Shown piece by piece: positions 24,694-31,797 of a stretch of 47,928 bases of DNA. Source of the stretch: Lentisphaeria bacterium (GTDB lineage Bacteria > Verrucomicrobiota > Lentisphaeria > Victivallales > Victivallaceae). A model generated the notes under the pieces. That model worked only from the letters and a program-made list of their open reading frames with translations, was not told the origin of the DNA and made no database searches. Location: assembly GCA_017504435.1 (NCBI GenBank), contig JAFVRD010000020.1, forward strand, positions 1-47,928. Direction: 5' to 3'. How positions within the stretch are numbered: the stretch's first letter is position 1; each line of letters begins with the position of its first letter. The translations under genes were made by a program, and so were the position numbers.

Positions 24694-25974
24694 TCACAAT
24701 CTGCCATCAGTAACTTCTTTCGGCAAAAAACCTTTTATATCGTATACGATGCTCCCTGCCCCGGCAAGCAGCTGCCGGACGTTGAGCGAGGAAAATTCCC
24801 GGTGCGGCACCGCTAAAACCACGGCATCAAATTTCATATCCGGCAGATCTTTTTCAGAATTCAAACCATATACTTTCTGAACCTCTCCGGGGTCTGCCCA
24901 AGGATCATAAATCATCACCTTGCAACCGAATTCATGCAATCCGACGGCGACATCCACCGCCTTGCTGTTGCGGATATCCGGACAGTTTTCCTTGAACGTG
25001 ATCCCCAATTGCAAAATCTTTGCTCCTTTGACCGGATGTTCTTTGCGGATAAGCAATTTCACAACTTCTGAAGCGACATATTTGCCCATACCGTCGTTGA
25101 TACGCCTGCCGGCGAGAATAACTTCCGGCAAATACCCCAATGATTGCGCTTTGTGAGTCAGATAATAAGGATCAACACCGATGCAATGTCCACCGACCAA
25201 TCCCGGAGTGAATTTTAAAAAGTTCCATTTAGTTCCGGCTGCGGCAAGCACCTCTTGAGTGTCGATTCCGATAAGATGAAATATTTTGGCAAGCTCATTG
25301 ACAAAAGCGATATTCAAATCGCGTTGACTGTTTTCGATGACTTTTGCGGCTTCGGCAACTTTTATAGAACTGGCACGGTAAGTTCCATTGACCAATATTG
25401 AGTTATACAATGCATCGACAGCTTCTGCGGCTTGCGGTGTTGAGCCGGATGTTATTTTCAATATTTTGGTCAGCGTATGCTCTTTATCACCCGGATTGAT
25501 CCGTTCCGGTGAATATCCGCAGAAAAAGTCTTTATTGTATTGCAATTTGCTGAACTTTTCCAAAACCGGTACGCACTCTTCCTCGGTACAACCGGGAAAA
25601 ACCGTACTTTCGTAAATAACGATCGCTCCGGGTTTCATCACCTTGCCGACGGTTTCACTGGCACGGTACAAAGGCTGAAGATCCGGTCTATTGTATTTAT
25701 CCACCGGAGTCGGCACCGTGACAATGAAAACATCCCGGTCCGTCAACTTTGCAACATCAGATGTAAATTGCAGCCGGCTTGCCGCTGCCAATTCGCCGGA
25801 AGTCGTTTCCAAAGTGGAATCAACTCCGGAACGCAGTTCCTGCAACCGGGATTCTTTCACATCAAACCCTATGGTATCAAATTTTTTGCCGAATTCTATC
25901 GCCAACGGCAATCCCACATATCCCATGCCGATAATGGCAATTTTTAATGAGCAGTTTTGTATTTTTTCAAGCAT
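24694..25974 (-). CDS. tviB: UDP-N-acetyl-hexosamine 6-dehydrogenase (TviB/WbpO type)
   Basis: NAD-dependent two-step oxidation of a UDP-HexNAc (GlcNAc or GalNAc) to the uronic acid, supplying an acidic sugar for polysaccharide. The Rossmann loop GMGYVGLPLA is near residue 17, SPERINPGDKEH in the middle, and the catalytic Cys in VGGHCIGVDPYYLTHKA. 426 residues is standard. The block pattern matches TviB/WbpO better than WecC, but the stereochemistry cannot be fixed. The start at 25974 begins the natural N terminus; a longer frame adds 14 atypical residues. Last gene of the leftward glycosyltransferase unit. Confidence 0.88.
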   Translation of the reverse strand: MLEKIQNCSLKIAIIGMGYVGLPLAIEFGKKFDTIGFDVKESRLQELRSGVDSTLETTSGELAAASRLQFTSDVAKLTDRDVFIVTVPTPVDKYNRPDLQPLYRASETVGKVMKPGAIVIYESTVFPGCTEEECVPVLEKFSKLQYNKDFFCGYSPERINPGDKEHTLTKILKITSGSTPQAAEAVDALYNSILVNGTYRASSIKVAEAAKVIENSQRDLNIAFVNELAKIFHLIGIDTQEVLAAAGTKWNFLKFTPGLVGGHCIGVDPYYLTHKAQSLGYLPEVILAGRRINDGMGKYVASEVVKLLIRKEHPVKGAKILQLGITFKENCPDIRNSKAVDVAVGLHEFGCKVMIYDPWADPGEVQKVYGLNSEKDLPDMKFDAVVLAVPHREFSSLNVRQLLAGAGSIVYDIKGFLPKEVTDGRL

Positions 25975-25994: not shown

Positions 25995-26501
25995 TTACAA
26001 CAAAGCAGCATAACATTCAGCGATACGCTTCCAAGTATATCTCCGGTCAGCGATTTCTTTCATTGCAGCAGCTATCGCCGGCAAATCAACTTTATCAGCA
26101 TCGGCAATTATCCGGTGCAATTCATCTGCACTGGAAAAATACAAAGCCTTGTTTTCTGTGGTTTCCCGGTTAAAATTTACATCAAATGCCGCAATCGGCA
26201 ATCCCAGATACATTGCTTCCACCAGAGATGGATTGGTGCCGCCGCATGAATGACCATGCACATATAAACTGCAGTTTGCCCGCAATTTATCCAGTTCTTT
26301 TTTATCATATATCGGAGCGAGCAAGGTAATACCATCGACCTGATTGAAACGATCAAAGAGAGATTGTCCATAGTCACTCTGCTGCCAGTTGCCAACCATT
26401 ATCAAAGGCATCTGCAAATTGCTTTGAAAAGCTTCCAATATAACATGAATATTGTTTTCAGGTTCAATGCGGCAAACCCCGAACGCATATTTTGCACTCA
26501 T
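25995..26501 (-). CDS. Glycosyltransferase, C-terminal half (split gene)
   Basis: 168 residues forming the nucleotide-sugar-binding half of a GT-B enzyme. It begins MSAKYAFGVCRIEPENNIHV, an internal block in intact DUF1972-type glycosyltransferases, and carries the donor-site motif GTNPSLVEAMYLGLP near residues 86-100. The N-terminal half is in the adjacent gene in another frame; the two share one base (TAATG). GGAGG (26509-26513) sits 7 bases before this ATG, a strong ribosome site inside the end of the first half. Either the enzyme works as two chains or a single-base change has broken a gene. Confidence 0.75.
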   Translation of the reverse strand: MSAKYAFGVCRIEPENNIHVILEAFQSNLQMPLIMVGNWQQSDYGQSLFDRFNQVDGITLLAPIYDKKELDKLRANCSLYVHGHSCGGTNPSLVEAMYLGLPIAAFDVNFNRETTENKALYFSSADELHRIIADADKVDLPAIAAAMKEIADRRYTWKRIAECYAALL

Positions 26502-27043
26502 TATTTTGCCTCCAGCTTCTTATTGTCCGCGCCGTATTCTATTAACTCGCAATGTTTGCCGTAAGTTGCTTTAACATAATCGGTAATAACTTGGTTATCC
26601 CCGATGACCACATCAGAATATTTAACGGCACACTTTTCGGAAAAACGCAAAAACCAGCGGGCAAATCCTGACCATTTGGCGCGTTTCCATTCAATGCCGT
26701 CAATATTTACAACAATTTTTTTACGACAGCCGAACAACCGCAAAAACGGCAGCAAAGTACAACCGCTTACACCGAGAATCAGCAAAGAATCCGCGTATGT
26801 TATTGCATTAAAAATACTCAGCATGTCATACAATATGCTCTGAATTCCATTCGCTTTCAGCGGTAAATATTTCAAGCGGATATTCTGAATTTTTTCCGGA
26901 TGCGTTTTGAATGCTGATTTTGAACAATACACCGTTATTTCAAAACGTTCCTGCAATTGTATTGCCAATTGTTCTGTCAGAGTTTCAAAGCCTCCGTAAT
27001 TGGCAGGTATACCCACCGAACCTATTATTGCTGTTTTTTTCAT
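26501..27043 (-). CDS. Glycosyltransferase, N-terminal half (DUF1972 type, split gene)
   Basis: 180 residues. The N terminus KKTAIIGSVGIPANYGGFETL is the signature of the DUF1972 domain of rhamnosyltransferase-like GT4 enzymes, followed by the acceptor-domain block VNIDGIEWKRAKW. It stops after ...NKKLEAK, exactly where intact homologues of about 350 residues continue into the C-terminal domain. The -1 frame continues naturally through ...KIMSAKYAF. The ATG at 27043 begins 4 bases after the stop of the upstream GT4 gene. Alone it would lack the donor site. Confidence 0.75.
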   Translation of the reverse strand: MKKTAIIGSVGIPANYGGFETLTEQLAIQLQERFEITVYCSKSAFKTHPEKIQNIRLKYLPLKANGIQSILYDMLSIFNAITYADSLLILGVSGCTLLPFLRLFGCRKKIVVNIDGIEWKRAKWSGFARWFLRFSEKCAVKYSDVVIGDNQVITDYVKATYGKHCELIEYGADNKKLEAK

Positions 27044-27047
27044 GTTA

Positions 27048-28349
27048 TCAACATTGATATAAATCAATTATTTCGTTCGCATGTTCTTCCATTGTTTTCA
27101 ACGGTGCTGCCGCACATATCGCTGCATTTTGCTGAAACAAAATTTCCGGATCACTGAAGAAATCTTTTAATTTCATGGCTAATCCGTCTTTGCCGTGAAA
27201 TACCATTTTTTCATCGACCAATATTTTGGCACCAACGGTGTCGGAACACAACACCGGTGTTCCGCACGATAGTGCTTCTGCCACGACAAAGCCAAATGTT
27301 TCAAACCATATTGACGGTACGATCAGCAAATCATAGGATGTCAATATTTTTTTAAGTTCTTCCTGGGAATACAATCCCCTGCACCAAACATTTTCCTGTT
27401 TAATATGGTTTTCATTACCCCATATATCCAGCTGCCATTCAGCAAATCCATCCTGATACAGTCCGGATAACACATCCAACAGCATCGGCAAGCCTTTATA
27501 ACTTGCCGCAGATCCGGAAAACATAATGCGTATTTTTTCCGGAACCGTCTGTTTTTTCACTCTCTCATCCCGGATACCGGCATGGGAGAGTGGCACAACC
27601 CGGGTGGTTATACCGGAAACCAGACGATTGTATACTCCGGCAGTAACATCGCTGTTGCAGTGTATAATATCACACATTTTCAGCAAATTGCAATAGTATT
27701 CTTTTACAGCTTTATAATTTTTTACTGAAAAATTTCCCGATGGAACATTTTTTTGCCGTTTCAACAACTTTACTGCCGGACGCAATATTTTTTTTATTTT
27801 CAGCAAACAGGGATTATTTCTCAATGCCAATTCTCCGGCAGACGGGGCATTACAATTGCAACGGGAACATTTTTCATCAGATGCTTCACAGCACAATTGC
27901 CCGTCAAAGTCAATAAAATTAACTTTCGGACACAAACCAAAATAATCGTGAGTTGTGAATACGATTTTTACGTTGCGTTTCTTTAATTCGATCAAGAGTT
28001 CTTTCGGAAACCCCATCCATGTATGTATATGAAACACATCCGGATGGACCTCGTCACAAAACGCAGTAATATTCTCATTGCTTAATTCCGGATGATTCGT
28101 GATCATGTCTGGATCCGCGATACCCTCCAGCAGCGGCACCGGCGCGCCACCAAACAGAGCAAAGCAGCCGATCCGCTTATGATTTTTGATTCTTTTGATT
28201 TCCGGATGTCCGGTATTGAAAAAACATCCCTGCGGACAAAGGGTAAAAACATCATGCCCGGCAGCTGTTTGTGCAAGCGCCAGATCTGCCGCATAACGAT
28301 TTAATCCCCCTGCCCGGTTGAATCCTAAAAAATAGTGTAATATACGCAT
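27048..28349 (-). CDS. GT4-family glycosyltransferase
   Basis: 433 residues, GT-B fold, probably at the cytoplasmic membrane face building the repeat unit. GFNRAGGLNRYA at the N terminus, FSGSAASYKG in mid-protein, and the EX7E motif in ETFGFVVAEALSCGTPVL near residue 368 are typical. A cysteine-rich insertion (CPKVN...CCEASDEKCSRCNCN, residues about 146-172) looks like a metal-binding knuckle, seen in some GT4 enzymes. The sugar is unknown. Start and stop codons overlap the neighbours (TGATG upstream). Confidence 0.88.
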   Translation of the reverse strand: MRILHYFLGFNRAGGLNRYAADLALAQTAAGHDVFTLCPQGCFFNTGHPEIKRIKNHKRIGCFALFGGAPVPLLEGIADPDMITNHPELSNENITAFCDEVHPDVFHIHTWMGFPKELLIELKKRNVKIVFTTHDYFGLCPKVNFIDFDGQLCCEASDEKCSRCNCNAPSAGELALRNNPCLLKIKKILRPAVKLLKRQKNVPSGNFSVKNYKAVKEYYCNLLKMCDIIHCNSDVTAGVYNRLVSGITTRVVPLSHAGIRDERVKKQTVPEKIRIMFSGSAASYKGLPMLLDVLSGLYQDGFAEWQLDIWGNENHIKQENVWCRGLYSQEELKKILTSYDLLIVPSIWFETFGFVVAEALSCGTPVLCSDTVGAKILVDEKMVFHGKDGLAMKLKDFFSDPEILFQQNAAICAAAPLKTMEEHANEIIDLYQC

Positions 28350-29640: not shown

Positions 29641-30885
29641 TCAAAAATTCCTTTCCTGAACTTTTACATCACTGATTTCGATATCACCTGAATTCAACTG
29701 GATCCATATCCGCCTTAATTTTTTATTGTGTTCTGATGGAATATGCCATTTTATCTCCGTCTCTTTTCCTGCCGGCAAGTTCAACGGCATTGTTGCAATC
29801 ATAATCCCCGGATGATAGTATTGACGTAACAACTCTACAAAGCTGTCGGAATTGGCTTTTAACTTGAAATATACGACACATGGATTCTTATCTTCAAAGT
29901 ATTGCGATATCAATGCGACATAAGATCCATGAGCCTGCAAACGCAAAACATTTTTATCACCGCGTTTTTCCACATTCGCCAAAGAATTGCAGCGGGTGAT
30001 CAAACTTATATAAATCTCCCAGTTTTTCGGTAAAGATGGTTTTTCAGAAATAAAACGCGGTGCCCGTCTGCCAAAATATTCTTGTTTTTTTCTCAACGCA
30101 TCTCCACTGAGGAGTTGTGAAAAATCTCCATTTATAAGATACGGCACACGAGAACTGTCAAACTTTTCTTTACGCGGAATATATTTCAATACCAGCAACT
30201 CTTTTTTATTTTTCCGATCCATGAATGACCTGCCGAATATTTCCACACTGCCATCCGGCATCAGAGTTTTCAACTTTTCATCAAGATTGCGATATTTTTT
30301 TGTGATCGGAATACATATATATAAAACATCACATAATCCGTGGTACACATTCAAATTGTTTTGCAATCCTTCATATACCCGATCTAATTCATCCGTATAA
30401 TACTGACATCCGACGGTTTTGACTCCGGAATAATATTCTATCTGCGATGAAGACTCCTTATACACGATCACCAAAGGCTGTTTGTATCTGCCGGCATCTT
30501 GCCCTATTGATTTATAGAGAGACAACTCTCCGGAAATTTGCGGATTATACCGCAAATCTCTGGCAATGCAGACCGCAAACAGGATCAGCAACGTGATACA
30601 CGATAATTTTTTCCAGTGTTTCAATCCATCCCATGCCAAATGAAATATCACCATCATTGCCGGCAAAACCAATATCATGTAATACCGGGTAGAATTTGTA
30701 CCAATGTAAATTCGCCACCCCCAGGCAAAAAGTACCATAAATACCGCGACATACCACCAGGCACTACGCCAATATTTTTTGCTGCAATAACCAAAGTAAA
30801 GCAATGCCGGAACCAGACATACTCCGACAACTTCCCAGAGGAGATTGCTGATATCTAAAGCGGATTTAATGAAGTTCCCAAGCAT
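29641..30885 (-). CDS. Membrane glycosyltransferase, C-terminal half plus extra soluble domain (split gene)
   Basis: 414 residues. The first ~120 residues hold four hydrophobic segments, including TNSTRYYMILVLPAMM, which resembles the late transmembrane part of ArnT/GT39-type enzymes. The remainder is soluble and ends in a domain that looks like a beta-sandwich carbohydrate-binding fold (GDKNVLRLQAHGSYVALISQ). The ATG at 30885 lies inside the 3' end of the upstream gene, with AGGA 10 bases before it. I read this as the second half of the enzyme begun at 31643, separated by a frame change. Confidence 0.65.
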   Translation of the reverse strand: MLGNFIKSALDISNLLWEVVGVCLVPALLYFGYCSKKYWRSAWWYVAVFMVLFAWGWRIYIGTNSTRYYMILVLPAMMVIFHLAWDGLKHWKKLSCITLLILFAVCIARDLRYNPQISGELSLYKSIGQDAGRYKQPLVIVYKESSSQIEYYSGVKTVGCQYYTDELDRVYEGLQNNLNVYHGLCDVLYICIPITKKYRNLDEKLKTLMPDGSVEIFGRSFMDRKNKKELLVLKYIPRKEKFDSSRVPYLINGDFSQLLSGDALRKKQEYFGRRAPRFISEKPSLPKNWEIYISLITRCNSLANVEKRGDKNVLRLQAHGSYVALISQYFEDKNPCVVYFKLKANSDSFVELLRQYYHPGIMIATMPLNLPAGKETEIKWHIPSEHNKKLRRIWIQLNSGDIEISDVKVQERNF

Positions 30886-31643
30886 TGTGCAAAAATCCTG
30901 TTGTAAAAAATATTAAAAATATCCGGCATTCCCGGTAAAATATAAAAAAGCATTCCGCAAACGATCACTCCGGAGCTGATCAATACCGCCGTGACAAACG
31001 CATTTTTCCATTGCCAATTGGGAAACAACATTGCCAGAGGCAGCCCCACCAGCACAAACGGCAGAAATTCCACTGCTTCATACCGGCAATATAATGCCGG
31101 TATGCACAGTGCTCCGATAATAAAAGCATTTAATTTCCAAAGAACTCTTTTAAGCGTCATTATCCACAGGCATACTATCCAGAACAACAAAAACAAATAC
31201 AATCCCTCGCGCAGTCGTACACAGGAATACTCAACCAAAGGCGGCATTACTGCTGCAAACGCCGCGAACCACAATCCGGCATTGCGATCATTGTATATGT
31301 ATCTGCCGATCAGATACGCCGGGATCAGCAACAATATTCCGCTGATCATATTTATATACAGTAAAGCATTTGCCGCACTCAATCCACAATACATCAAACT
31401 TTTCCCCAGGTAACAGTACAGCGGCGGCGGCACGGTTTCATGTGCAGGCAAAGCAGCCTGCCCCAACTCAAACCATTTATGGGTAAAATTGATATATGCA
31501 ATTCCATCCCGGGTTTCAATGGGGCTCTGTATCAAATATACCATGCGCAAAATGACAGCAATTATCACTATAATGAACAATGCAATGGATTGTTTGTATT
31601 TTACCAGAAAATTATATTTTTTCACTGTAATTCCGATACTCAT
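30855..31643 (-). CDS. Membrane glycosyltransferase, N-terminal half (GT39/ArnT-like, split gene)
   Basis: 262 residues, six or more hydrophobic segments. SPIETRDGIAYINFTHKW after the first segment carries the acidic residue of the first periplasmic loop that is catalytic in GT39/ArnT/PMT-type enzymes using polyprenyl-phosphate sugars. The frame ends ...GTSLNPL within a membrane region, well short of the usual ~500 residues; the following gene in another frame continues the membrane part and overlaps it by 31 bases. GGAG precedes the ATG at 31643 by 9 bases. A longer frame adds 37 atypical residues and passes upstream of the predicted transcription start. Confidence 0.7.
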   Translation of the reverse strand: MSIGITVKKYNFLVKYKQSIALFIIVIIAVILRMVYLIQSPIETRDGIAYINFTHKWFELGQAALPAHETVPPPLYCYLGKSLMYCGLSAANALLYINMISGILLLIPAYLIGRYIYNDRNAGLWFAAFAAVMPPLVEYSCVRLREGLYLFLLFWIVCLWIMTLKRVLWKLNAFIIGALCIPALYCRYEAVEFLPFVLVGLPLAMLFPNWQWKNAFVTAVLISSGVIVCGMLFYILPGMPDIFNIFYNRIFAQCLGTSLNPL

Positions 31644-31683
31644 CAAAAGGTTCTCCGAACATTTTTCATTCGTTACATAATAG

Positions 31684-31712
31684 AATATATTAAAACTGTT
31701 GCAATTTGTCAA
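31684..31712 (-). promoter_or_regulatory. Strong promoter for the glycosyltransferase-tviB unit
   Basis: On the minus strand a consensus TTGACA (31707-31712), 17-base spacer, TATATT (31684-31689). Predicted start near 31677, leader about 34 bases to the ATG at 31643. Confidence 0.7.
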
Positions 31713-31797
31713 AATATAAAACCAATTGATTGCTCGCGATGGATTGAGACACAACTCAAACGTATCCCAATGGACACAGTATAACGTAACTTCCTAA

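Follow-up and report, generated by a model that had tools for sequence, protein, structure and literature searches.

A glycosyltransferase encoded in two parts

Within the window analyzed here, a 47,928-nt stretch of DNA from a Lentisphaeria bacterium, a glycosyltransferase of the DUF1972/GT4 kind is divided between two adjoining genes. We conclude from sequence comparison and structural modeling that the pair very probably constitutes one two-subunit GT4 enzyme, rhamnosyltransferase-like and made by stop-restart translation. Comparison across genomes indicates that the split is kept by evolution in a group of Lentisphaeria and is no sequencing mistake. The sequence shows a GT-B enzyme divided within the weakly conserved linker that joins its two Rossmann domains; in the mechanism that we propose, a ribosome finishing the N half would restart on the C half by termination-reinitiation. 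Such coupling would supply matched amounts of the N and C chains, which may then associate as a heterodimer with the active site in between. By analogy with characterized enzymes, the N chain would bind a lipid-linked acceptor and the C chain a nucleotide-sugar donor, possibly dTDP-rhamnose, and the pathway served would be surface polysaccharide synthesis.

Both genes lie on the minus strand, and their assignments rest on Pfam, NCBIfam and AlphaFold2. The N half (26501-27043, 180 aa) carries the DUF1972 or acceptor-side GT-B N-terminal domain and runs from an ATG at 27043 to a TAA at 26503-26501. The ORF list also offers an upstream TTG start at 27067; in most relatives the N half starts at the methionine equivalent to 27043. 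The C half (25995-26501, 168 aa) carries the Glycos_transf_1 or donor-side GT-B C-terminal domain and begins with an ATG at 26501-26499, a single A being common to both genes in the sequence TAATG (26499-26503). Across the junction the minus strand reads ...AGCTGGAGGCAAAATAATGAGTGCAAAATATGCG..., with a Shine-Dalgarno-like GGAGG (26513-26509) within the last N-half codons, 7 bases before the C-half ATG. Its predicted duplex of -9.3 kcal/mol is equalled or bettered at 0.7% of other gene-pair positions. A run of A residues occupies 26507-26504, and AAA-ATA-ATG can be read as K-I-M in the -1 frame. RNA structure at the window junction shows nothing beyond chance (z 0.12). The initial annotation had described a DUF1972 glycosyltransferase in two coupled frames with a one-base TAATG overlap, an internal GGAGG and halves that join through K-I-M in the -1 frame; sequence and Pfam bear out this description in each particular.

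Two complementary GT-B halves

The N half belongs to Pfam DUF1972 (PF09314), scoring 101.4 bits against a cut-off of 25 and covering profile positions 1-186 of 186, and the C half belongs to Glycos_transf_1 (43.7 bits, cut-off 26.4). DUF1972, Glyco_transf_4, Glycos_transf_1 and Glyco_trans_1_4 are the only Pfam families that match the halves at E <= 0.001. On the NCBIfam Cps2T model (NF046071, 384 positions) the N half aligns to 1-190 and the C half to 213-382; given this coverage, the halves jointly amount to one GT4 enzyme lacking only the middle of its linker. The N half scores 110.5 bits on this model and the C half 99.4 bits, both far below its 500-bit equivalog cut-off, and we therefore leave the exact reaction at the rhamnosyltransferase-like level; an intact homolog from the Lentisphaeria genome G018 reaches 209.2 bits. 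The dTDP-sugar isomerase family PF00908 was matched in all 12 Lentisphaeria genomes searched (11 with a split enzyme, plus G018). This family also serves sugars other than dTDP-rhamnose, and its presence allows dTDP-rhamnose as the donor without proving it.

The AlphaFold2 models are of high confidence, with a mean pLDDT of 90.2 and pTM of 0.86 for the N half, whose last seven residues score below 50, and a mean pLDDT of 92.3 and pTM of 0.88 for the C half. In structure comparison the N model superimposes on residues 4-177 of PimB' (3oka_A; Z 12.1, rmsd 3.1, 165 aligned) and the C model on residues 194-376 of the same chain (Z 18.9, rmsd 2.1, 164 aligned). Both also match BshA and MshA, and against GT-B C domains the C model reaches Z 20.7 (rmsd 2.2, 165 aligned). 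As modeled, then, the halves are confident separate domains, and the stretches that they cover on a given GT-B chain are complementary. The matches include structures solved as single domains, namely the C domains 2f9f and 2bfw and the N domain 6ldq, so such halves can fold alone. When solved structures were sought by sequence, the N profile found none at E <= 0.001 and the C profile found three weak matches at E <= 0.01.

What would each chain contribute? The DUF1972 GT4 rhamnosyltransferases GacB, RgpA (SccB) and WchF (Cps2T) match the window pair in both domain content and domain order; they are single polypeptides, whereas the window has two ORFs. According to PMC6802508, replacing GacB residues 1-178 with WchF 1-186 moves acceptor use to Glc-PP-Und, and the WchF-GacB chimera, joined near the split boundary of the window enzyme, is functional. 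From this result we expect selection of the lipid-linked acceptor to fall to the N chain and donor binding to the C chain.

Distribution of the split

The initial annotation had called for a search for the same split in relatives; besides the window's genome, 10 further class genomes and one Spirochaetia contig carry it, a recurrence that makes the split more than chance. PF09314 was matched in 15 of the 197 Lentisphaeria genomes that make up our class sample; 13 of these hold close homologs and two (G037 and G404) hold divergent subfamilies. Eleven of the 13 close homologs are split in the same interdomain linker, and the other two, in G018 and G050, are intact and do without the split, which is thus dispensable. 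The 11 splits span seven genera and three families and include G126, a genome assembled as one contig of 5.7 Mb. In the window's genus, PF09314 was matched in 6 of 34 genomes, five of them split. G037, divergent and single-chain with its gene start beyond the contig, was set aside, as was G404, whose enzyme belongs to a different subfamily with one single-chain copy and another that changes frame. The latter copy, a DUF1972-like divergent enzyme on contig 253 of G404 (L075), changes frame deep in the C domain, unlike the linker split.

Outside the class the split is rare in the genomes compared. A relative of the N half was found in 42 named contigs; in 40 of these the frame is at least 352 aa long, and two are split, one from Lentisphaeria and one from Spirochaetia. 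The Lentisphaeria contig (L009, from water buffalo rumen), the closest of those named, represents the same place as genome G364 of the class sample and comes from the window's order. The other, Spirochaetia bacterium MS499-28 (L034 5998-7063), has TAA, one base and ATG at its junction and brings the number of split loci to 12. In the phylum sample outside the class, 18 genomes match, mostly with divergent enzymes; 17 have frames of at least 371 aa and the other (G345) is cut by a contig end. Among 395 Bacteroidota genomes there were 33 matches at E <= 1e-15; the frame measures 362-426 aa in 32, and the remaining one (G801) is truncated where its contig ends. G345 and G801 were set aside because of these truncations. 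Seventeen of 398 Pseudomonadota genomes match, and all 18 places are single-chain (354-476 aa). One genome each from the Bacteroidota and Pseudomonadota samples (G457 and G455) is also among the 42 named contigs. Plasmid DNA gave no match, plasmid proteins gave 47 records that are all below 60% identity, and none of 12 viral contig stretches that matched a pattern encodes a relative.

The two halves travel together. The C half (E <= 1e-20) was detected in 14 of the 197 class genomes, 11 of them split, and the N half (E <= 1e-3) is present in all 14; in one further class genome, G404 with its divergent subfamily, the N half alone is matched at these thresholds. At every one of the 12 split loci the N half has the C half as its immediate downstream neighbor. 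These observations weigh against the possibility, improbable in our estimate, that two chains are made and act apart, one of them for example as a regulator, or in complexes with other glycosyltransferases. In favor of separate action, each half models as a complete domain, and a relative of the GT4-type glycosyltransferase gene that immediately precedes the N half in the window (27048-28349, minus strand; Pfam) occupies the same position in 9 of the 13 loci compared, a conserved potential partner next door. Against it, besides co-occurrence and adjacency, stands the fact that GT-B catalysis requires both domains. The need for both in catalysis is described for Alg13/Alg14 in PMC8993221. The two-subunit enzyme is the reading that we prefer.

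Junctions and probable translational coupling

How would the second chain be translated? The junctions of the 12 split loci differ in sequence and resemble one another in geometry. TAATG is found in the window's genome (G000), G006 and G451, TGATG in G026, where an ATGA reading is possible too, ATGA in G364, G388 and G286, and GTGA in G152. In G010 the TAA is followed at once by ATG, and in the Spirochaetia locus by 1 nt and then the start. Wider junctions occur in G009 (TGA plus 4 nt) and G126 (TAA plus 18 nt, reduced to 12 if TTG is the start). Measured from C starts that we chose among candidates, the stop-to-start distance is -4 or -1 in 8 of the 12 loci, the window having -1, and lies within -4 to +4 in 11. 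As stated in PMC10666635, termination-reinitiation operates within -8 to +6 nt, -4 and -1 occur more often than any other distance between paired prokaryotic genes, and short overlaps are over-represented where the two products belong to a single complex. The window and 10 of the other split loci thus fall inside the reinitiation range. The window shares the -1 overlap with known termination-reinitiation pairs and would be coupled likewise, while G126 differs from them in its 18-nt gap (12 with TTG).

Shine-Dalgarno strength ranks in the top 5% of gene-pair positions in 6 of the 12 split loci, and G286 stands at 7%. A strong site is absent from G026, G451, G009, G126 and the Spirochaetia locus, so coupling is perhaps weaker or different there.

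An alternative route, also raised by the initial annotation, is programmed -1 frameshifting on the A run to give one full-length protein. We regard this as very improbable. The window halves are indeed joined in the -1 frame, and 8 of the 12 split loci have a C frame of -1; in G010 and G126, however, it is 0, with an in-frame stop, and at the Spirochaetia locus and in G009 it is +1, which excludes -1 frameshifting as a general explanation. A canonical X-XXY-YYZ heptamer, the only type of slippery site sought, is missing from the overlap in 11 of the 12 loci, and the sole one detected, in G026, stands 271 nt upstream of the stop. A usable start codon, moreover, lies close to the junction at every split locus. 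Assignment to the programmed -1 frameshift genes, which calls for a conserved -1 relation together with a slippery heptamer, was accordingly rejected on the frames and the heptamer scan of the 12 loci. Stop-restart translation into two chains remains the preferred account. In intact Bacteroidota-type relatives the linker is mostly 31 residues long with a poorly conserved middle, and it is there that the split falls.

Selection and conservation

Both halves are under purifying selection wherever it could be measured. For the N half, 5 of 9 pairs were computable and gave NG86 dN/dS values of 0.06-0.12; for the C half, 3 of 9 gave 0.13-0.26. These values are rough, since dS exceeds 1 in the computable pairs and is saturated in the rest; YN00 returned a value in 1 of 18 comparisons. 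Each alignment has 26 rows, of which intact enzymes supply 23 and split enzymes, the window's among them, 3; in these rows 39 columns of the N half and 30 of the C half are invariant. At the five other Glycos_transf_1 places in the window's genome the frames are full-length (395-506 aa), so splitting is no general defect of this assembly.

The initial annotation, which favored a functional split, is supported by the same linker being split in 11 of the 13 close class homologs with differing stop/start joins, an arrangement that rules out an indel error. Its other proposal, a broken or mis-assembled gene, whether through assembly error or as a decaying pseudogene, is the least probable of all: the draft state of the window's genome (2.26 Mb in 61 contigs) and an extra in-frame stop in G388 would suit it, but a common split site whose junction sequence varies across 11 genomes (including a single-contig one), the purifying selection on both halves, the invariant columns common to intact and split enzymes and the full-length glycosyltransferase frames elsewhere in the genome all speak against it. 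The extra stop of G388 is a TAA at 1972-1974 of L052, in the N half and 23 codons before its normal end; it may reflect a sequencing error, a polymorphism or decay.

Evolutionary history

Phylogenetic analysis covered 53 homologs; L026, in which the motif was not found, and L049 were omitted, both being intact. The 11 Lentisphaeria splits and the intact G018 enzyme form one clade (support 100/98). Within it G018 is sister to the split G026 (100/96), then to G006 (100/99) and then to G451 (98/96), and a topology in which the 11 splits group to the exclusion of G018 is rejected (p-AU 0.005). When the halves are placed in separate trees, the clade is kept, with support of 98/97 for the N half and a lower 83/79 for the C half, and G018 falls inside it in both, as sister to G026 in the C tree and beside G006 and G026 in the N tree. 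With flanks aligned, the join in G018 is 10 nt longer than in its split sisters G006, G026 and G451. Taking G018 as the ancestral form would require several separate splits; because it nests deep inside the split clade, the most economical history has a single split followed by one re-fusion, which the intact G018 gene probably represents. The split, in all likelihood, arose at or before the base of the Lentisphaeria clade and was then inherited while its junction was repeatedly re-modeled. Grouping the Spirochaetia split in one clade with G018 and the splits of Lentisphaeria is compatible with the data (p-AU 0.364); the Spirochaetia split may have arisen separately or may stem from an old transfer.

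The halves of G286 (L055) differ in their affinities, the N half grouping with G126 (98/97) and the C half with the window (95/98). The C grouping is weakly rejected on the N data (p-AU 0.0375), but the N grouping survives the test on the C data (p-AU 0.273). These trees hint at a partner swap by recombination. A broader role, in which the split frees acceptor- and donor-binding halves for exchange and lineages gain new linkages by swapping one subunit, is a speculative idea that we think rather unlikely.

Relation to other split glycosyltransferases

Natural split GT-B enzymes are known, namely Alg13/Alg14 and the EpsE/EpsF group; in PMC8993221 they are classed with GT1/GT28, and one old split with several later re-fusions is proposed. 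Gene anatomy and models place the window pair beside them as separate genes for GT-B N and C domains, divided likewise into a predicted acceptor chain and a predicted donor chain. They are GT1/GT28 enzymes, in contrast to the DUF1972/GT4 window pair, whose halves have no Pfam match to GT1/GT28-type families at E <= 0.001 and lie outside that membership. We therefore take the window-type split, found in another family, to be independent of theirs. In the literature searched, which left most subscription papers outside, we came across no account of a DUF1972 or GT4 enzyme that is split.

What does such an enzyme offer? It would represent a conserved, separate split in GT4 together with a probable natural re-fusion, the same enzyme occurring as one chain and as two in sister species. 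Comparing the sister forms makes the effects of the split testable, among them stoichiometry, membrane placement and partner exchange. The case is also a caution for annotation pipelines that would label such split genes frameshifted.

Genomic neighborhood

The gene pair sits in a polysaccharide cluster, with two further GT4-type enzymes upstream. The next gene downstream (24694-25974, minus strand; Pfam, NCBIfam) encodes a nucleotide-sugar dehydrogenase, TviB-like and just below the model cut-off, and a nucleotide-sugar dehydrogenase lies directly downstream in G010 too.

A second pair of overlapping ORFs, membrane-protein-like, belongs to the same cluster and lies at 29641-31754 on the minus strand, where ORFs 31754-30855 and 30885-29641 overlap by 31 nt with the second in the -1 frame. 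The ORF at 30885-29641 has a weak match to the LA_3751-family glycosyltransferases (18 bits), and its upstream partner at 31754-30855 is without a match. As no single-chain homolog of the pair was found among the other loci compared, these may simply be two genes. Their -1 relation is present in all six loci in which the pair was found (G006, G009, G010, G018, G026 and G451; 13 others compared).
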